A stretch of DNA of 21,402 nucleotides from a virus. The stretch covers positions 1 to 21,402 of the IMG/VR virus record IMGVR_UViG_3300027649_000017. One strand, written 5' to 3'. The number at the start of each line of letters is the position of its first letter. Within the stretch, counting starts at the first letter, position 1. The translations under genes and the position numbers were made by a program. The notes beneath the pieces were generated by a model. That model was not told the DNA's origin, did no database searches, and saw only the letters and a program-made list of their open reading frames with translations. This document shows, one piece after another, positions 8,968-21,289 of this stretch.

Positions 8968-9633
8968 ATGAATGTCACGTTAGTCAGTTATTCCCGTGCG
9001 GCCGATCATGGCGAAACCCATCTAACAGACTTGCAACAATTAGTGGCCTATTGCGCGAGAGTCTCGAATCCCGATAATCAGGCCAATACTCTGACCTCAG
9101 AGAAATTGATTCAATATCTCATAGACCATCAACATTGGAGTCCCCTAGAGATGGCCTCAGCGTGTCTGGAAATTGAAACGACCAGAGATATTGCACGACA
9201 GATACTCAGGCATCGGTCCTTTGCCTTTCAAGAATTTTCTCAACGCTATGCCGATCCAACCAAGGCCTTAGACTTTGAAGTTCGCGAAGCCCGTCTGCAA
9301 GATACCAAAAATCGACAGAACTCCCTGAAGAATGAGGACCCCCTCTTAGAACTGATGTGGACAGAGCATCAACATCGAGTTAAGGAAGAATCCTTGAAAG
9401 CCTATACCTGGGCCGTGGATCGAGGCGTGGCGAAAGAACAAGCCCGTGCGGTGCTTCCAGAAGGTCTTATGGGTACTCGCCTCTACATGGCTGGGTCGAT
9501 TCGGTCTTGGATTCACTATATACAAGTTCGTACCAAACCTGATGTGCAGAAGGAACATCGTGACGTTGCGCAAGCGTGCGCTGACACCTTGACGACCATC
9601 TTTCCGATGATACAACAATTTGTGGCTAAATGA
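8968..9633 (+). CDS. thyX: Flavin-dependent thymidylate synthase ThyX
   Basis: A 221-residue enzyme that makes dTMP from dUMP using methylenetetrahydrofolate, FAD and NADPH. The signature RHRX7S is present as RHRSFAFQEFS (81-91), followed by QRY. HWSPLEMAS near 56-64 and VRTKPDVQKEHRD near the C-terminus match conserved substrate and flavin-binding regions. Length is normal for the family. It lies between primase and ribonucleotide reductase, forming a replication and deoxynucleotide-supply group. A ThyX rather than a ThyA-type enzyme matters for the later modification locus: no ThyA-type dUMP hydroxymethylase is seen in the window. Confidence 0.95.
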   Translation: MNVTLVSYSRAADHGETHLTDLQQLVAYCARVSNPDNQANTLTSEKLIQYLIDHQHWSPLEMASACLEIETTRDIARQILRHRSFAFQEFSQRYADPTKALDFEVREARLQDTKNRQNSLKNEDPLLELMWTEHQHRVKEESLKAYTWAVDRGVAKEQARAVLPEGLMGTRLYMAGSIRSWIHYIQVRTKPDVQKEHRDVAQACADTLTTIFPMIQQFVAK

Positions 9634-9690
9634 CATTGTGTGGTTCTTATAAACCTTTTTCACCTTTTATGCATCGATGGAGCAATCATT

Positions 9691-11622
9691 ATGTCGCTTG
9701 GCACCACGCACCTCGGATTTCCTACGGACTATCAGGCCTTCATCTATATGTCTCGGTATTCCCGATATCTCTGGAATGAGGGGCGTCGAGAATATTGGGG
9801 AGAAACGGTCAAACGGTATCTCGACTTCTTTCAGGTTCATCTGGGAGAGACCTGCGGCTATAGTCTGACCAAAGATCTTCGAAGTGAAATCGAAGAGGCC
9901 ATTCTTCATCTCCAGGTGATGCCCTCGATGCGATGCTTGATGACGGCGGGAGACGCACTCGAACGCGAACCTCTGGCCGGATATAATTGTTCCTATACAG
10001 AAATCTCTCGCCCACAAGCGTTTGATGAAATCCTTTATGTCTTGCTCAGCGGCACGGGCGCGGGGTTTAGTGTGGAGCGCGATAAAATTTCTAACCTTCC
10101 CACGGTGGCCGAAGAGTTTCATCAGTCTGATACGGTCATTGTGGTGGGGGATTCCAAACTTGGGTGGGCCAAGGCCTTCAAGGAATTGATTGGCATGCTC
10201 TATCAGGGACAGATTCCTCGCTGGGACTTGACGAAGATTCGTCCCGCCGGTGCGCCGCTGAAGACCTTTGGCGGTCGTGCGTCGGGTCCAGGTCCGCTGC
10301 AAAGTCTCTTTCACTTTGCCGTCGTGACCTTCAAGAATGCGGCGGGACGTAAGTTGAATTCCTTGGAGTGCCATGACCTGGTGTGTAAGACGGGGGAAGT
10401 GGTGATTGTGGGCGGCGTGCGGCGCAGCGCCTTGATCTCGCTGTCCAATGTGTCGGATGACCGCATGCGCCATGCCAAGTCTGGACAATGGTGGATCGAA
10501 CACCCTGAACGAACCCTCTCGAATAATTCTGCGGCCTATACTGAACGCCCTGATGTGGGAGTATTCATGGATGAGTGGCATGCTCTCTATGCGTCAAAAT
10601 CTGGTGAGCGAGGGATCTTTAATCGTGTCGCGGCTCAGAATCAGGTGGCCAAGTATGGTCGCCGTGATACGTCCCATGCCATGGGTACGAATCCATGTGG
10701 TGAAATCCTTCTCAGGGATCGTGGACTCTGTAATCTCTCTGAGGCCATTGTTCGAGTCGATGATACGCTGGAGACCCTCGAAAAGAAAGTTCGCCTGGCG
10801 TCGATTCTGGGTACGTTTCAGTCCACCCTCACGAACTTCAAGTATATGTCAGCCAAGTGGAATCACAATTCTGAAGAAGAACGATTGCTGGGCGTGTCGC
10901 TGACGGGTATTATGGATTCGACGTTACTCAATGGGAATGATATCAAGAAGACACAATCCATTCTCACGTCTCTTCGCGAGTTGGCCGTCGCCACAAATAT
11001 AGAGTTCGCCAAGAAGTTAAAAATTAATCCGTCGGTCGCGGTGACCTGTGTAAAACCGAGCGGAACCGTGTCGCAAATGACCGATTCCGCATCAGGGATT
11101 CATGCGCGGCATTCACAGTATTACATTCGCACGGTTCGCATGGATAAAAAAGACCCGCTGAATACCTTGATGATTGCGCAGGGGGTGCCCCATGAAGATG
11201 ATGTCACGAATCCCTCGAACATCACGGTCTTTTCGTTTCCCATGCAATCTCCCAAGGGGGCCATCCTGCGCACCGACCGCTCAGCCGTGGAACAATTAGA
11301 ATTCTGGCAACTCTACCATGACTACTGGTGTGAACATAATCCGTCGATTACCGTGTCGGTCAAGGAGCATGAGTGGCTCGATGTGGGGGCCTGGGTCTAT
11401 AAGCATTTTGATAAGGTCTGTGGAGTGGCCTTTCTCCCCTACTCCGAACATATCTACAAGCAGGCGCCCTATCAGGAATGTACCCAGGAACAATATCAAG
11501 CGGCCGCCACCGCTTTTCCAGAGACCTTGGATTGGGATAAACTTATTGAGTATGATGGTGGAGTGGATATGACCACGGGGTCGCAGGAACTTGCTTGCTC
11601 AGCGGGGAAGTGCGATCTCTAG
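9691..11622 (+). CDS. nrdJ: Adenosylcobalamin-dependent (class II) ribonucleotide reductase
   Basis: A 643-residue enzyme that reduces ribonucleotides to deoxyribonucleotides using coenzyme B12. It resembles the monomeric Lactobacillus RTPR type (739 residues) and keeps its key residues: Cys336 and Glu338 in NPCGEI match thiyl Cys408 and Glu410, Cys347 matches Cys419 with the same spacing of 11, Cys100 in GYNCSY matches Cys119, and the C-terminal pair Cys636/Cys641 in ACSAGKCDL matches the shuttle cysteines 731/736. ALEREPLAGYNCSY and GTGAGFSVERDKIS are further family segments. ATG 9691 is preferred over GTG 9640 because GGAG lies 8 bases before it. The enzyme needs B12, so the host must make or import it. 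Confidence 0.93.
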   Translation: MSLGTTHLGFPTDYQAFIYMSRYSRYLWNEGRREYWGETVKRYLDFFQVHLGETCGYSLTKDLRSEIEEAILHLQVMPSMRCLMTAGDALEREPLAGYNCSYTEISRPQAFDEILYVLLSGTGAGFSVERDKISNLPTVAEEFHQSDTVIVVGDSKLGWAKAFKELIGMLYQGQIPRWDLTKIRPAGAPLKTFGGRASGPGPLQSLFHFAVVTFKNAAGRKLNSLECHDLVCKTGEVVIVGGVRRSALISLSNVSDDRMRHAKSGQWWIEHPERTLSNNSAAYTERPDVGVFMDEWHALYASKSGERGIFNRVAAQNQVAKYGRRDTSHAMGTNPCGEILLRDRGLCNLSEAIVRVDDTLETLEKKVRLASILGTFQSTLTNFKYMSAKWNHNSEEERLLGVSLTGIMDSTLLNGNDIKKTQSILTSLRELAVATNIEFAKKLKINPSVAVTCVKPSGTVSQMTDSASGIHARHSQYYIRTVRMDKKDPLNTLMIAQGVPHEDDVTNPSNITVFSFPMQSPKGAILRTDRSAVEQLEFWQLYHDYWCEHNPSITVSVKEHEWLDVGAWVYKHFDKVCGVAFLPYSEHIYKQAPYQECTQEQYQAAATAFPETLDWDKLIEYDGGVDMTTGSQELACSAGKCDL

Positions 11623-12110: not shown

Positions 12111-12284
12111 ATGATTCAGTCGTTTGACTGCGAGGAATGCACCGGATCATTTCAGGTGGACTATGATGACGTGCTTCATGATCTAACGCCCATTCACTGC
12201 GTGTTCTGTGGCGAATTTCTTCTCCATGATGATGAGGTAATTCGTGGCCGATCCCTCGATGATGGTGAATCCGTGGACGTATAA
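12111..12284 (+). CDS. Small zinc-finger-like protein, 57 aa
   Basis: A 57-residue protein with two cysteine pairs, CEEC (7-10) and CVFC (30-33), spaced like a small zinc ribbon, and an acidic C-terminal half. AGAGG lies 5 bases before the ATG. The 3' end overlaps the start of the next gene by about 40 bases, which is common in phages. Small zinc-ribbon proteins often bind nucleic acid or RNA polymerase, but no specific family is recognised. Confidence 0.65.
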   Translation: MIQSFDCEECTGSFQVDYDDVLHDLTPIHCVFCGEFLLHDDEVIRGRSLDDGESVDV

Positions 12285-12711
12285 CGGTCGACTCTTCACC
12301 GATCCCGCACACTATTGCGGATTTGTCTACCTCATTACGCACCAGCCCACTGGCAAGCGTTATGTGGGTCGTAAACTCTTTACCAAATCCAAGACCAGAC
12401 AAGTCAAGGGTAAAAAGAAGCGGTCTCGCGTCTCCTCTGAATGGGAAACGTATTGGGGATCGTCCTCGCTGTTGCAGGCGGACCTCATCACCTTTGGCCA
12501 CCAATACTTTACTCGCACCATTCTTCATCTGTGTGTGTCCAAATCTGAATGTGGCTATTTTGAGACGATGGAAATCTTTGCTCGTCATGCCCTCATTCGC
12601 CCCGACTATTATAATGATTGGGTGTCCTGCCGCATTCGCAAGGCACACGTGATGAAAACCCTTCATCCATTACTGGATCGTCTCCTGTATCCCACGTCCA
12701 TTCTTGACTAA
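12244..12711 (+). CDS. GIY-YIG-like putative endonuclease
   Basis: A 155-residue protein. CGFVYLITHQPTGKRYVGRK near residues 25-44 matches the two halves of the GIY-YIG nuclease core (FVY and YVG with a lysine/arginine-rich turn). ETYWGSSSLLQADL and ECGYFETMEIF (the Glu that binds metal in this fold) follow in the expected order. GTG 12244 is favoured by GAGG (12234-12237) 6 bases upstream; ATG 12259 is an alternative. No intron is seen in the neighbouring genes, so this is more like the free-standing GIY-YIG-type proteins of T4-like phages than a proven homing enzyme. The activity is inferred. Confidence 0.65.
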   Translation: MADPSMMVNPWTYNGRLFTDPAHYCGFVYLITHQPTGKRYVGRKLFTKSKTRQVKGKKKRSRVSSEWETYWGSSSLLQADLITFGHQYFTRTILHLCVSKSECGYFETMEIFARHALIRPDYYNDWVSCRIRKAHVMKTLHPLLDRLLYPTSILD

Positions 12712-16896: not shown

Positions 16897-18258
16897 ATGA
16901 CGCAAATAATTGTAGCGCCCACGCTGCACCCCTCAGAACATCTCCTGGGACAGTTTCTCGACGAACAACATTACGATACGCTTATTGAAACTGATACCGA
17001 CTTCTATCTTCCCGCAGCCGGTCACGTGACGGCTGCGTCAAGCGATTCGAACCCAAAGGATTGCGAGACCCGCGACCTGGAGTCCCAGGAAGACCGCGTG
17101 GCCTTTAAGTTTCGTAAGAACTATTTTACCAAAGCGGAACAGGATCAGGCTTACGCTGGATTGCGGGATTGTGCGCTCATGACCTCTGAGAATCGTGGGA
17201 TGGCGGCTGGGCCGATGGCTGGACAATTGGGCAATCGGATAACTGTGGATAATTGCCAGCTGGAAATTCTTAATTATTTCTTATCGCCCAAGAAACTTTT
17301 AGATTTTGGGACAGGGATCGACCCCATTCAGGGTATCCGCGATTCCTTTCTGAGTGGAACAAAAGTGATTCGAGGGACACGCTGTCCCGTCTGGCTTTCC
17401 ATTCCGGTGAACCGTGACCAGTTCAAGTTTGACGCATGGGTGAAACAGACTCAACGATTGTCAAGCCTGGAAATGATCAGCGAAGCCCATAGGATTATGG
17501 ACACGTATATATCTGATACATCCTATGCCAATCAAGTCAATTCAAGCATTGCGGGTTGGTTTGATCGCTATCCACGCATTCCCTATGGTCGAGCGACTTC
17601 CTACACCAGAGATCACCCAGCGCAATTTCAGCTGTCCTTTCCCTTTCTTCAACATCTCTCGAAAGGGTTCCATGACTTGATGCCCCAACGATATCGGGCG
17701 CAACAGGCTGCGGCCTCGCAGATCGATTCTCGTTTTCTCGTTCCAGGAACACCCCTGACGACCATTACTGTCAATAAAACATTCCGAACCGCCGCACACC
17801 GTGATGCCGGAGATCTGAATACTGGTCTGTCCAATCTGCTCGTTCTCTCAAATACTGGAAATTTTACAGGTGGATATCTCATTCTACCGCAGGTGCGTGT
17901 CGCCATTAATGTGCGTCCAGGCGATCTTCTGTTGATCAATAATCATGAGTGCATTCATGCCAATACGCCAATTGTGTTATTAGACGAAGACGCTGAACGG
18001 GTGTCTCTGGTCTGCTATTTTCGCGCCGCCATGTTGGAATTAGGATCCTATGAGTATGAGGACTGCCGATTTCAGTTTGTGGAATCCCGTCGATTGAACT
18101 CCCAGCACCCCAATCAGCGGGAACGATGGAATGGAGTCAGTGAAGGCATGTTCGAGTCACCTGAGTGGTATGAGTTTCTTCGAGAGAAACTCGGAGAAGA
18201 GGTCGTGCAACACTATCATCCGACTAAGAATCCCGAACTCGATCGGTTCTTTAACTAA
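16897..18258 (+). CDS. TET/JBP-type 2-oxoglutarate/Fe(II) dioxygenase
   Basis: A 453-residue protein. The C-terminal half carries a double-stranded beta-helix: TVNKTFRTAAHRDAGDL supplies the HxD iron ligands (His301, Asp303), GGYLILPQVRVAINVRPGDLL forms the core strands, HECIHANTP supplies the distal His (350 or 354), and ERVSLVCYFR supplies the 2-oxoglutarate-binding Arg368. The 'FRTAAHRDAGD' pattern with RxGDLL is that of the TET/JBP superfamily, which oxidises methyl groups of 5-methylcytosine or thymine in DNA, and related phage proteins. Residues 1-280 (GWFDRYPRIPYGRATSY and others) have no motif I can name. ATG 16897 follows AGGAGA. Together with the kinase and transferase downstream it suggests DNA base hypermodification. 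Substrate base unproven. Confidence 0.78.
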   Translation: MTQIIVAPTLHPSEHLLGQFLDEQHYDTLIETDTDFYLPAAGHVTAASSDSNPKDCETRDLESQEDRVAFKFRKNYFTKAEQDQAYAGLRDCALMTSENRGMAAGPMAGQLGNRITVDNCQLEILNYFLSPKKLLDFGTGIDPIQGIRDSFLSGTKVIRGTRCPVWLSIPVNRDQFKFDAWVKQTQRLSSLEMISEAHRIMDTYISDTSYANQVNSSIAGWFDRYPRIPYGRATSYTRDHPAQFQLSFPFLQHLSKGFHDLMPQRYRAQQAAASQIDSRFLVPGTPLTTITVNKTFRTAAHRDAGDLNTGLSNLLVLSNTGNFTGGYLILPQVRVAINVRPGDLLLINNHECIHANTPIVLLDEDAERVSLVCYFRAAMLELGSYEYEDCRFQFVESRRLNSQHPNQRERWNGVSEGMFESPEWYEFLREKLGEEVVQHYHPTKNPELDRFFN

Positions 18259-18277
18259 TGTTGGTTAAATACTAACA
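18259..18277 (+). other. Small hairpin just after the dioxygenase stop
   Basis: TGTTGGT (18259-18265) pairs with ACTAACA (18271-18277) around a 5-base loop, with one G-U pair. There is no T-run, so it is at best a weak terminator or mRNA-end stabiliser. Confidence 0.3.
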
Positions 18278-18287
18278 TAAAATCAAC

Positions 18288-18365
18288 CACTTCGAATGGG
18301 CTCATACGGATTGGAATTTGTCCTTGACTTCTTCGCTCCAATCAGGTAGACTAAGAATATGGGTA
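18288..18365 (+). repeat. 78-base direct repeat, copy 1, carrying a promoter
   Basis: This segment recurs at 21212-21289 with 6 mismatches in 78 bases and no gaps. It includes the -35 and -10 boxes and the ATGGGTA that follows. The two copies bracket the small ORF, methyltransferase-like gene, transferase, kinase and tRNA-Ala. Confidence 0.92.
18324..18352 (+). promoter_or_regulatory. Sigma-70 promoter in repeat copy 1
   Basis: TTGACT (18324-18329) and TAGACT (18347-18352) are 17 bases apart. An ATG follows 6 bases after the -10 box (18359). The promoter would drive the small ORF and the modification genes behind it. Confidence 0.78.
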
Positions 18366-18400
18366 GTGTTTATCGTTTTCAATCTAACAAAAGGGGTGTC

Positions 18401-18640
18401 ATGATGAGAGGATCGAGTAATGTGCGAAAATATCTAGCGCAGGTAGAGGCCCAACCGAAGGAAGCGAGTGATTATTCATGCGACTATCGCCAGGCCGTGA
18501 TTAATACACTGAATTGGATGCTGGTCAATAGCCCAGAGCGTCCAATGTCGGCGGCACCGGCGAGTCGCCCAGCGGCGTTGAAGAAGCCGAAGCCTGTTCG
18601 GGCCATGGCGTTTCCGAAAGCGCAGCAGGTAGTAGGATAA
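18401..18640 (+). CDS. Small hypothetical protein at head of modification operon
   Basis: A 79-residue protein. AAAAGGGG just upstream supports ATG 18401. A longer form from ATG 18359 (MGSVYRFQSNKRG added) would be leaderless and adds 14 residues. The N-terminal half (NVRKYLAQVEAQPKEASDY) is helical; the C-terminal half is rich in Ala, Pro and Lys (PAALKKPKPVRAMAFPK) and probably disordered. No family recognised. It lies 3 bases before the methyltransferase-like gene and so belongs to the same transcript. Confidence 0.55.
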   Translation: MMRGSSNVRKYLAQVEAQPKEASDYSCDYRQAVINTLNWMLVNSPERPMSAAPASRPAALKKPKPVRAMAFPKAQQVVG

Positions 18641-18643
18641 TTG

Positions 18644-19390
18644 ATGGTTGCTCAAGCGGTCGCGCGAATCTGCGGAAAATGGGATCTCCCATTCTACATC
18701 CCTCTCGTGAGCGAGGGGGAAATCGCGAAGGAACGACGCTCGTATGTGCACTATGTCGCGGCCCATCAACCTCTCGTTTCGGCGAAGTGCCTCGCCACGG
18801 AATGGCTCGTGTCAGGACTAACTCCTGGCATGAGCATTCGGGAGTATTTTGGTGGGGTCGGCGTGGTCAGCACAATATTGAAAGGTGTGCTGTCTCCGAG
18901 CACGCTTATCGCCACCGACATCGATGCGCGATGCGTGGAGCAACTGCAGGGGTTGCTGGGGGCAGACTGTGCCTGGCAAGCGAATGCCAAGGGCGACATA
19001 CTCTTGAACTGTGCGACCGAGTGTACCGATATGCAGGTACTGGACTTCCCCAGCTTTACCGCCCCAAGAATCTATACGACCTGGAAGGCACCGTGGGCCG
19101 CCATATTTGCAAAGAATCCGACGGTGGTGATCTTCACGGACACGGCCTGTTCGTATCTTTCGGTACATCGGGGCGTGTACAGCGAGTTCTTCGGGCGTCC
19201 TATTACGGATAAGCACAGCTACACGTGTGCATTTTCAGATTTCCTATTCGCCACGTATGGCTATTCCATACGGCGGGCCGCGTACCGTGCGCGCAATGCC
19301 GCGTATTATCTCTGCCTCAAGGGAGACAGCGAACTAAAGGAGGCGGAGTTTCCGCAGAGAGGTCTCAATGATGGATTTGAGTTCCGGTAG
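18644..19390 (+). CDS. Methyltransferase-like Rossmann protein of the modification locus
   Basis: A 248-residue protein. SIREYFGGVGVVSTIL looks like motif I of class I SAM-dependent methyltransferases and LIATDIDARCVEQL like the acidic motif II. At the expected catalytic position it has LDFPSFTA instead of a standard DPPY or PC motif, so either the substrate is unusual or methyl transfer has been lost. FTDTACSYLSVHRG follows. ATG 18644 is preferred (AGGA 6 bases before) to TTG 18641. The gene overlaps the next one by 23 bases, tying it to the transferase. A role in base modification is inferred from position. Confidence 0.6.
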   Translation: MVAQAVARICGKWDLPFYIPLVSEGEIAKERRSYVHYVAAHQPLVSAKCLATEWLVSGLTPGMSIREYFGGVGVVSTILKGVLSPSTLIATDIDARCVEQLQGLLGADCAWQANAKGDILLNCATECTDMQVLDFPSFTAPRIYTTWKAPWAAIFAKNPTVVIFTDTACSYLSVHRGVYSEFFGRPITDKHSYTCAFSDFLFATYGYSIRRAAYRARNAAYYLCLKGDSELKEAEFPQRGLNDGFEFR

Positions 19391-20536
19391 CGCAGGGAGC
19401 GCGGGGAGATATTGCGCCCTGCGCGGGATCACCGAGTTGACCCCTGAGCAGCTGACGGCTGGTCTGGACTTTAGACTTCCGCAGCACAGGAGAGCCGTCT
19501 TTTTGCGTGCATACGAGTTTCACCTCCAATACGGGACGATGCCTGGGTGCGTGTACTTTCTGTTCCCGTGGCTGACGACCCACTACGGCTGGACGCAGGA
19601 GCAGAAGCTGTGGTTTGCCTTTCTGAATGGCAATACGCAGAATCCCGTGACCAGCTGGCTGATTTTTCGTCAGTTCCCTGCCGTGGACGGGCTGGACGAG
19701 TTCGAGCTGGGCCGGTGGTTCGAGGCGCAGTACGCTCGCCTAGAGTTTGACACGGATCGCCGGTACCACAAGAAGAATTTTCTGCGGGCCGTGGCAGGCT
19801 ACCGTCTCATGATCGGTCGTGGGACGCAACAGACTCTATTTGATGGAATCACCCAGAGCAGCGATGAGAAAGAGAATTATCGGCTGCTCTGGGTAAGGAT
19901 GAAGTCTTTCTATTCGTTCGGCCGACTCAGCATGTTCTCATATAGCGAATATCTACGCATTATGGGACTGCCTATTGAGTGCGACCAGCTATTCTTGGAT
20001 GATCTAGAGGGGAGCAAATCTCATCGCAACGGGCTGTGTAAAGTTCTGGGGGGGACGACTTGGATTGGCATGATTCCAACCCCGCATTTACAGGATATTC
20101 TCAAGACGTGCTACAGTGGCTCCGTGAGGAAGGCGCACTCTTGCTACAGGAGGCACGAGAGCGGTTTGCTGGGCAACCGTATGCAGCTAACGTCAGTTAC
20201 GAAACGCTGGAAAGTCAGCTGTGTAATTACAAGAGCTGGTATCGACCGAATCGTCGGTATCCTAATGTATATACCGATATGCTGTACGGGCGGATTCGCA
20301 GGGCTGAGAAGTTGTGGGGCGAGTCGCTGGATCTGTTTTGGCAGGCGCGTCGCGAATCGCTCCCCCAGCATTTGCGCCTAGAGGATACTCCGAGTGATCC
20401 AGGGGTGCATCCGATCAAGCAGAATCATTACCGACTCACGGGGGAGGTGATTATGATGGACCGTGATTGGCCGTGCTTCACCAATCGGTACAACCAAGCA
20501 GTGCCGTCTTCAGGATTAGACCACTTCTCTCTTTAA
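19368..20536 (+). CDS. Thymine hypermodification transferase (aGPT pyrophosphorylase/AADT-like), frameshifted
   Basis: Two frames join to give about 389 residues. Part 1 (19368-20054, 229 residues) contains RAVFLRAYEFHLQYGTMPGC, FLFPWLTTHYGWTQEQKLWF and AFLNGNTQNPVTSWLIFRQF. Part 2 (to 20536) contains DDLDWHDSNPAFTGYS, SWYRPNRRYPNVYTDMLYGR, HPIKQNHYRLTGEVIMMDRD and WPCFTNRYN. These resemble the alpha-glutamyl/putrescinyl-thymine pyrophosphorylase family, whose members include amino-acid:DNA transferases acting on phosphorylated 5-hydroxymethyluracil. The frames meet at GGGGGGG (20048-20054), where a -1 shift joins them; without it the 0-frame product is 337 residues ending in about 108 Cys/Arg-rich, unrelated residues. 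GAGAGG lies 5 bases before ATG 19368. Assembly error, mutation or programmed slippage are all possible. Confidence 0.72.
20048..20054 (+). other. Run of seven G: -1 frameshift site
   Basis: Codons CTG GGG GGG ACG cover the run, forming G GGG GGG, a perfect X XXY YYZ slippery heptamer. A -1 slip gives GGG GGG GAC GAC and continues into the conserved second half of the transferase. One extra G would give the same protein without slippage. Confidence 0.85.
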
Positions 20537-20548
20537 TAGGAGTCTCTC

Positions 20549-21088
20549 ATGCGAACGGTCATTGCGATTGGCGGGTCACCAGGAACGGGGAAGACCACGC
20601 TCATGCGGGCGTTTATGCAGGACAAAGTCTGGGAAACGGTCGAACCTAAGAAAACACTATCTGCACTCTATTGTCGAGACCTTGATCTGTACATTCTGGG
20701 GAAGTATGCCGAGGGAGAGGTCTTTGCTGGCACGGACCGACTTAGCATGGCCGTCCAGCCGGTGCTCGAAGCCTGGATGACGACCCATCAGTCTCACGTG
20801 TTATTTGAGGGTGATCGCGTCTTCAATCAATCCTTTCTCGAATTTCTCCTCACTCTTTCGGACACGGAAGTGCATATCGATTTTTTGAGAGTTCCCCAAT
20901 CCATTCTCCTCCAGCGGTATCGGGACCGTGGATCCAATCAATCTGAGCAATTCCTCAAGGGTCGAGCCACAAAGTATCAGAATTTGATGGGAAACTTTGC
21001 ATTGCGCCCGCACATTACGGAGTATGCGCATGTCACGCCGGCCGATCAGGCCCTCGTTCTCCACCATCTACATACGACCCTCCTCTAA
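20549..21088 (+). CDS. P-loop kinase, 5-hydroxymethyluracil DNA kinase-like
   Basis: A 179-residue protein. The Walker A motif is GGSPGTGKTT (8-17); VLFEGDRVFN (84-93) is the Walker B-like segment; YILGKYAEGEVFAGTDRLSMAVQP lies between them; QRYRDRGSNQSEQFLKGRATK (from about 129) has the lid arginines. ILGKY, FAGTDRLSM and LFEGDR are segments I associate with the P-loop kinase family of phage hypermodification loci (HMUDK), which phosphorylate 5-hydroxymethyluracil in DNA. ATAGGAG lies before ATG 20549. It is 12 bases after the transferase and clearly in the same operon. The name rests on motif recognition; a general nucleotide kinase is the alternative. Confidence 0.75.
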   Translation: MRTVIAIGGSPGTGKTTLMRAFMQDKVWETVEPKKTLSALYCRDLDLYILGKYAEGEVFAGTDRLSMAVQPVLEAWMTTHQSHVLFEGDRVFNQSFLEFLLTLSDTEVHIDFLRVPQSILLQRYRDRGSNQSEQFLKGRATKYQNLMGNFALRPHITEYAHVTPADQALVLHHLHTTLL

Positions 21089-21211: not shown

Positions 21212-21289
21212 CACTTCGAATAGGCTTATACGGATTGGAATTTGTCCTTGACTTATTCGCTCCACTCAGGTAGACTTAGAGTATGGGTA
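21212..21289 (+). repeat. 78-base direct repeat, copy 2, carrying a promoter
   Basis: Matches 18288-18365 at 72 of 78 positions without gaps. It begins 8 bases after the tRNA-Ala 3' end. Like copy 1 it ends in an ATGGGTA start. Confidence 0.92.
21248..21276 (+). promoter_or_regulatory. Sigma-70 promoter in repeat copy 2
   Basis: TTGACT (21248-21253) and TAGACT (21271-21276) are 17 bases apart, with the same boxes and spacing as copy 1. The ATG of the last gene comes 6 bases after the -10 box. Confidence 0.78.

Follow-up and report, generated by a model that had tools for sequence, protein, structure and literature searches.

The subject of this analysis is a cluster of four genes at positions 16897-21088 of the single IMG/VR record IMGVR_UViG_3300027649_000017, a fragment of a phage genome that was analysed over its whole length of 21,402 bases (below, the window). 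The genes lie on the + strand in the order TET-MT-ADDT-kinase, and a cassette for post-replicative hypermodification of thymine in the DNA of a T4-like phage is the best explanation of the cluster, one that we hold with moderate confidence. The cassette and the thymidylate synthase gene of the window are composed as follows.

16897..18258, + strand: TET, a TET/JBP-family dioxygenase dependent on 2-oxoglutarate (2OG) and Fe(II), 453 amino acids (aa) (PF12851, phrog_24024, conserved residues)
18641..19390, + strand: MT, a protein with a predicted class-I S-adenosylmethionine (SAM) methyltransferase fold, 249 aa, TTG start (structure model)
19368..20381, + strand: ADDT (amino acid:DNA transferase), N-terminal part up to the frameshift (PF18724, phrog_3271)
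20042..20536, + strand: ADDT, C-terminal part, in the -1 frame (phrog_3271)
20048..20054, + strand: run of seven G (G7) where the ADDT frame shifts by -1 (reading-frame comparison)
20549..21088, + strand: Ploopntkinase3 P-loop nucleotide kinase, 179 aa (PF18751, alignment)
8968..9633, + strand: ThyX, FAD-dependent thymidylate synthase (PF02511, TIGR02170)

The TET protein matches the Tet_JBP family PF12851 with an E-value of 3.5e-23 and a score of 82.1 bits (curated cut-off 34.9), and phrog_24024 over its full length (2.4e-146). Residues H301 (17797-17799), D303 and H354 (17956-17958) of the metal triad are invariant in all 55 dereplicated phage TET sequences that were aligned, and the 2OG-binding arginine R368 (17998-18000) is present in 54 of them. 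A profile built of 12 TET-family sequences picks up human TET2 in the PDB (1.2e-5), with the HxD motif and the distal histidine aligned. Relatives of the protein occur in the complete phages Stenotrophomonas DLP6 (T4-like), Caulobacter Cr30, C48C1 and Synechococcus S-CBWM1. In databases these TET proteins are named either 'SNF2 DNA repair protein', which is misleading (KF301602/NC_025422 for Cr30, KU682439 for DLP6), or hypothetical. The digest of DLP6 DNA with 18 restriction enzymes was not used as evidence, the outcome being absent from the published sentence that mentions it.

The N-terminal part of ADDT alone matches PF18724 (2e-19, 70.7 bits, cut-off 26.2). The two halves of the protein fall on consecutive parts of phrog_3271, residues 23-233 for the N-terminal and 248-383 for the C-terminal half, and the protein has ADDT homologues in Ackermannviridae and comparable phages. 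The kinase matches PF18751, Ploopntkinase3, with 1.5e-9 and 38.1 bits (cut-off 27). Its Walker A motif is GSPGTGKTT, and the Gly, Pro, Gly and Lys of Walker A together with a GTD motif are invariant in six relatives, the alignment of which took in the kinases of Cr30, L012, L003, Melnitz and Harvey (L numbers denote loci and contigs of our collection). HMUDK (PF18748), the family of 5-hydroxymethyldeoxyuridine (5hmdU) DNA kinases, was found neither in the window nor in any TET-bearing record tested; the ViI control gave 386 bits with the same profile. The best PHROG match of the kinase, PHROG 800, is labelled 'terminase small subunit'. This label was apparently carried over from gene 1 of mycobacteriophages, which is annotated 'adenylate kinase' and lies beside the terminase gene.

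The MT protein has no match in Pfam, PHROG, NCBIfam or the sequence families of the PDB. Its structure was modelled on a six-sequence alignment of relatives (pLDDT, predicted local distance difference test, of 87; pTM, predicted template modelling score, of 0.87), and the model adopts a class-I SAM methyltransferase fold. The nearest structures are RNA methyltransferases of the RlmK, RsmD, RumA, TYW2 and Trm1 kinds (Z 12-15, identity 7-16%), and the best matches also include small-molecule and other class-I methyltransferases; the maximum of the comparison is Z 14.9 with a root-mean-square deviation of 3.6 over 192 residues. The Gly-rich motif I, E-Y-(F/L)-x-G-x-G, is conserved in the same alignment. 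All relatives of MT (L025-L027, L085, L111 and L112) are located in the same cassette. MT is treated here as a putative tailoring methyltransferase. The assignment of MT as a C5-cytosine methylase was rejected. In an earlier model from three sequences (pLDDT 55) M.HhaI was the top Foldseek match, but the closest neighbours of the better model are RNA and other class-I methyltransferases, and C5-DNA-methylases are not among the structural matches listed for it. MT does not match PF00145, its hhalign probability against C5-methylases is 0.4%, and where C5-methylase motif IV was aligned, it and its relatives have DFP and then S, Y, N or K, the catalytic cysteine not being conserved.

A preliminary description of the same DNA, made from its letters alone, had recognised four genes in one direction: a TET/JBP-type 2OG/Fe(II) dioxygenase with HxD...H and Arg, a methyltransferase-like protein, a protein with similarity to aGPT-pyrophosphorylases and amino-acid:DNA transferases, and an HMUDK-like P-loop kinase. 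The common direction, the dioxygenase with its residues and family, and the methyltransferase fold are borne out by the above results. The third protein does belong to the ADDT family, although its reading frame is broken here, and the last is indeed a P-loop kinase, but of the Ploopntkinase3 family and not of the HMUDK one.

5-Hydroxymethylpyrimidines are known to arise from a nucleotide premade by a ThyA-type hydroxymethylase, by oxidation of 5-methylcytosine (5mC) made by a C5-methylase, or by oxidation of thymine. PF00303 and PF00145, which cover the two enzymes named, were searched for in 52 TET-bearing records (the window together with sets of 17 and 36 records, two being repeated). Most of these are fragments, and weight was put on four complete genomes and on three contigs of 168, 171 and 197 kb. 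A hydroxymethylase-type PF00303 protein is present in none of the 52 records, Cr30, DLP6, C48C1 and S-CBWM1 included, and a non-homologous hydroxymethylase would escape this search. The sole PF00303 match is a Cr30 protein (373 bits), which was rejected as a hydroxymethylase: it exceeds the NCBIfam cut-off for thymidylate synthase and has the LPPCH, QRSGD and YNIA motifs of a canonical ThyA. The hydroxymethylase-type proteins of six control phages (ViI, M6, phiW-14, Vibrio 1.244.A, Cygsa01 and phiA8-29) score 40-66 bits with PF00303 and so are detectable by the same search. All six controls have such a protein and five have HMUDK, while none has TET; conversely, HMUDK is found in none of 13 TET-bearing records tested, and ThyX in 10 of these 13. 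The ThyX of the window matches PF02511 (1.8e-41) and TIGR02170 (144 bits, cut-off 87.9).

The C5-cytosine methylase family PF00145 was found neither in the 52 records (the window and 51 related ones, among them the four complete genomes) nor in 97 neighbourhoods of window-group TET genes. In contrast, it is detected in Methylophilales phage Melnitz, and in the separate TET clade represented by this phage a C5-methylase is present in 67 of 72 loci. Since the relatives of the window have neither a hydroxymethylase-type ThyA protein nor a C5-methylase, thymine is by elimination the likely substrate of the window-group TET, with the limit that a host methylase or a non-homologous hydroxymethylase would escape an argument from gene content. 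The preliminary description had identified the thymidylate synthase as ThyX, correctly as both profiles indicate, and had seen no dUMP hydroxymethylase; the search extended to related genomes returned none of that type, with the opposite pattern in phages of the hydroxymethylase route. Its proposal that 5-hydroxymethyluracil (5hmU) is made in the DNA itself by the TET protein and is then passed to the kinase and the transferase survived the gene-content tests in the relatives, for which the window alone would have been insufficient.

Profile search of viral contigs yielded 80 TET loci. The 97 window-group TET neighbourhoods contain ADDT in 49 cases, the kinase in 37, a class-II glutamine amidotransferase (GATase) in 61 and an amidoligase-like gene in 36. 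TET and ADDT share their strand in 53 of 53 loci and ADDT and the kinase theirs in 41 of 41, 28 of which have the latter two genes within 60 nt of each other. Such agreement of strand and such close spacing mean that the linkage is not due to chance. Two types of cassette can be distinguished. The first one has the order TET-GATase-amidoligase-(ParB-like)-ADDT-kinase, and the second one, TET-MT-ADDT-kinase, is found in the window, L027, L085 and L111, as well as in L112, which is cut before the kinase. In L025 and L026 the order is ADDT-MT-kinase; a TET gene follows 3.4 kb downstream in L026, and the fragment of L025 has none. MT and GATase are mutually exclusive: none of the 7 MT loci has a GATase, as against 46 of the 47 other loci with TET and ADDT. 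The exception is Cr30, where TET, ADDT and the kinase are present with insertions, together with a TAGT-like glycosyltransferase. In the TET tree the MT-type cassettes are associated with at least three TET lineages: the window and L085 are inside a large group, L027 and L111 are placed with Pelagibacter phage HTVC112P, and L026 with S-CBWM1 (on a long branch). The repeated pairing of MT-ADDT-kinase with different TET lineages argues for a functional unit rather than for mere shared descent.

The best reading of the TET protein is that it oxidises thymine in DNA and thereby feeds the kinase and ADDT. In the proposed pathway ThyX would provide normal dTMP (thymidine monophosphate), and the DNA would be polymerised with ordinary dTTP (thymidine triphosphate). 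TET would then hydroxylate the 5-methyl group of thymines in this DNA to give 5hmU, the hydroxymethyl group of which could be phosphorylated by the Ploopntkinase3 kinase, by analogy with HMUDK, to 5-phosphomethyl-U. ADDT would swap the phosphate for an amino acid at the 5-methylene, as suggested by its family and by the ViI pathway. Lee et al. are said to have described, in 2018 and 2022, the placement of a phosphate and then of an amino acid on 5hmU. In ViI the product of the pathway is 5-NeOmdU (PMC6449724, PMC11721090). The mutual exclusion of MT and GATase suggests that MT may fill the slot which in most relatives is held by the class-II glutamine amidotransferase and the amidoligase, and that it would tailor the attached group, most likely by SAM-dependent methylation. 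The purpose of the modification would presumably be resistance to restriction and to Cas and other nucleases, as in other hypermodified phages. A more detailed version of this scheme can be put forward tentatively: the T4-like phages may have swapped the entry to the pathway for a thymine-specific TET/JBP protein with a kinase family of its own, the resulting aminoacyl-substituted methyluracil being methylated by MT where the relatives amidate it.

Several observations weigh against post-replicative modification of thymine. The position +3 after HxD (D306), whose counterpart in TET2 and NgTet1 contacts the base, was tried as an indicator of base specificity and rejected as non-discriminating, since Asp is found there in both clades of TET. 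The C5-methylase and TET pairs of the Melnitz type are likewise accompanied by a kinase of the Ploopntkinase3 family (kinase match in 28 of 72 loci); thus the kinase alone is not diagnostic of thymine and is compatible with a cytosine route. That the kinase acts before ADDT is an assumption taken over from the ViI/M6 pathway. ADDT is missing at about half of the TET loci of the window group, and from the whole of some long contigs and complete genomes, which indicates that TET also serves other end products. The window, moreover, is a fragment of 21 kb. Finally, the two halves of ADDT do not share a reading frame, a -1 shift at the G7 run lying between them. The intact relatives L027 and L085 read straight through this site with CKVLGRDDLDW, and ADDT of the window gives the corresponding stretch only if ...KVLG in one frame is continued by GDDLDW in the other. 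ADDT is broken in two other contigs as well (L076 and L094), at different places in the gene. The scatter of these sites makes sequencing or assembly error, or random mutation, likelier than programmed shifting, and a programmed -1 frameshift was rejected as the principal interpretation, the relatives being uninterrupted and the two other broken copies breaking elsewhere. As it stands in this contig, the gene is broken or mis-assembled.

It is improbable, though, that the cassette as a whole is decaying, with ADDT inactivated and the DNA carrying only 5hmU or phospho-5hmU, or with the genes being mere remnants. The one-base shift at the G7 run would fit such decay, but both halves of ADDT keep their conserved residues, the frame beyond the shift stays open as far as the natural stop, TET, MT and the kinase are intact, and the breaks in L076 and L094 point to scattered sequencing or assembly errors. 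A somewhat better, still unlikely, alternative is the cytosine route, in which TET would make 5-hydroxymethylcytosine (5hmC) from 5mC supplied by MT, by a methylase outside the fragment or by the host, and the kinase and ADDT would elaborate 5hmC. Phage TETs acting on 5mC are the kind that has been characterised, reportedly by Burke et al. in 2021 (as cited in PMC12730594). The route is also favoured by the existence of TETs linked to a C5-methylase and a related kinase in Melnitz and its clade and by the M.HhaI match of the first, low-confidence MT model. It is opposed by the lack of PF00145 in the window, the related records and the TET neighbourhoods, by the profile, fold and motif IV of MT discussed above, and by the homology of ADDT to that of the thymidine-modifying Ackermannviridae. 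Very improbable is the third possibility, namely that 5-hydroxymethyl-dUMP is premade by a hydroxymethylase whose gene lies beyond the fragment, TET having a different task, on another base or on tRNA. Such a route is known in ViI, M6 and phiW-14 (PMC6449724), and the window represents no more than a part of a genome. Nevertheless, neither a hydroxymethylase-type PF00303 protein nor HMUDK is present in the complete Cr30 genome or in the cassette contigs of 168 and 171 kb, with the reservation that other folds escape this search, and the two gene sets are mutually exclusive among the records compared.

The scheme of a thymine hypermodification fed by TET is not new: TET-ADDT-kinase operons were predicted in actinophages after Iyer et al. 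2013. To our knowledge no phage TET has been demonstrated to act on thymine, the scheme being predicted in phages and never shown biochemically. Genes 1-5 of Gordonia DR-cluster phages include ParB, TET/JBP, a pyrophosphorylase-type protein and an 'adenylate kinase' and were ascribed to nucleotide modification (PMC9302106); this account of the cluster, which comprises CaiB and MossRose, proposes base modification and cites Iyer et al. 2013. Rhodococcus phage Tonitrus was described as having a system of five genes for thymidine hypermodification, among the products of which are a TET-like protein and a 5-hmU kinase (PMC11955845). MossRose genes 2-4, all in one direction, match TET/JBP PF12851 (weakly, 5.7e-4), ADDT PF18724 (4.6e-26) and Ploopntkinase3 PF18751 (9.1e-59). 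These actinophage operons (CaiB, MossRose, Tonitrus) share the TET/JBP, ADDT and kinase set with the window. However, they belong to phages of ~61 kb and have a ParB gene in front, a divergent short TET and no MT gene, whereas the window groups with T4-like relatives, has MT and shows no ParB-like gene within the fragment. What looks new is the spread of the system among T4-like phages, the MT-type cassette, the reciprocal gene pattern and the split of TET clades by partner.

Thymidine hypermodifications are carried by Ackermannviridae and similar phages (PMC11721090). ViI, M6, phiW-14 and other Ackermannviridae resemble the window in having an ADDT homologue and a P-loop kinase. In ViI, M6 and phiW-14, unlike the window, a ThyA-type hydroxymethylase supplies 5hmdU in advance, its phosphorylation falls to HMUDK (PF18748), and TET is absent. 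Phages with C5-methylase and TET (those of the Burke et al. 2021 type and Melnitz) share the TET/JBP family with the window and, in Melnitz, a Ploopntkinase3-related kinase, but in the Melnitz clade the C5-methylase stands beside TET as described above, versus none in the window group, and the TETs form separate clades. In Melnitz-3 (L024 4010-8090) a C5-methylase, TET/JBP, a protein of the ParB-like cassette and a Ploopntkinase3-related kinase follow in a row. This row is probably the equivalent, for cytosine, of the window cassette, and its kinase would act on 5hmC. The Melnitz genome paper, as far as found, mentions the methylase and, as gene 12, another 2OG oxygenase, but not this TET. Kinetoplastid base J (JBP1/2 and a glucosyltransferase) has hydroxylation of thymine in DNA as its entry step, which is established for JBP and proposed for the TET of the window. 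The second step in base J is glucosylation, in contrast to the phosphorylation and amino acid transfer proposed here, and the window cassette, unlike base J, contains no glycosyltransferase; Cr30 has the TAGT-like one.

If TET does feed the kinase and ADDT, thymine hypermodification could be installed selectively on existing DNA with no replacement of the nucleotide pool, which would account for a phage modifying only some sites or stages. Thymine-specific TETs, this kinase family and the amino acid transferases would then be usable for DNA labelling or sequencing. The swapped entry, if true, would represent a phage counterpart of base J reached via different chemistry. Because the TET clades linked to C5-methylases and those linked to ADDT are cleanly split, the question whether a phage TET takes 5mC or T is open to a direct test with matched enzyme pairs and with Cr30, a phage in culture that has its TET deposited under the name 'putative SNF2 DNA repair protein'.

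Other TET loci show a variety of partner genes. TET is accompanied by a UDP-galactopyranose mutase-like protein in C48C1 (L016 7938-11385), by TAGT-like and nucleotidyltransferase proteins in S-CBWM1 (L017 3729-7921), by a glucosyltransferase and a methyltransferase in Nonlabens phage P12024L (L191 5734-7999), and by ParB and an FkbM methyltransferase in HTVC112P (L190 5045-7267). TET would seem to be the starting point of several end products.

The remaining features of the locus are located between and behind the cassette genes.

18288..18365, + strand: repeated element, copy 1, upstream of the MT-ADDT-kinase genes (78-nt pair)
18359..18640, + strand: open reading frame (ORF) of 93 aa between TET and MT, which may not be a gene (ORF list)
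21212..21289, + strand: repeated element, copy 2, downstream of the kinase and a tRNA-Ala gene (78-nt pair)

The 93-aa ORF has no family match in Pfam or PHROG. The two copies of the 78-nt element are 92% identical and share the core TTGACT-17-TAGACT; the promoter-like appearance of this core suggests that they are probably phage promoters. Elsewhere in the window, positions 145-1992 encode a 615-aa protein with an N-terminal nucleotidyltransferase-like (CTP_transf_like) domain and a zeta-toxin/AAA_33 P-loop kinase domain. Beside ThyX, at 9640-11622, lies a ribonucleotide reductase similar to RTPR, the adenosylcobalamin-dependent triphosphate reductase (286 bits, which falls short of the cut-off), and positions 12244-12711 encode a SegE-type GIY-YIG endonuclease, possibly a homing enzyme.

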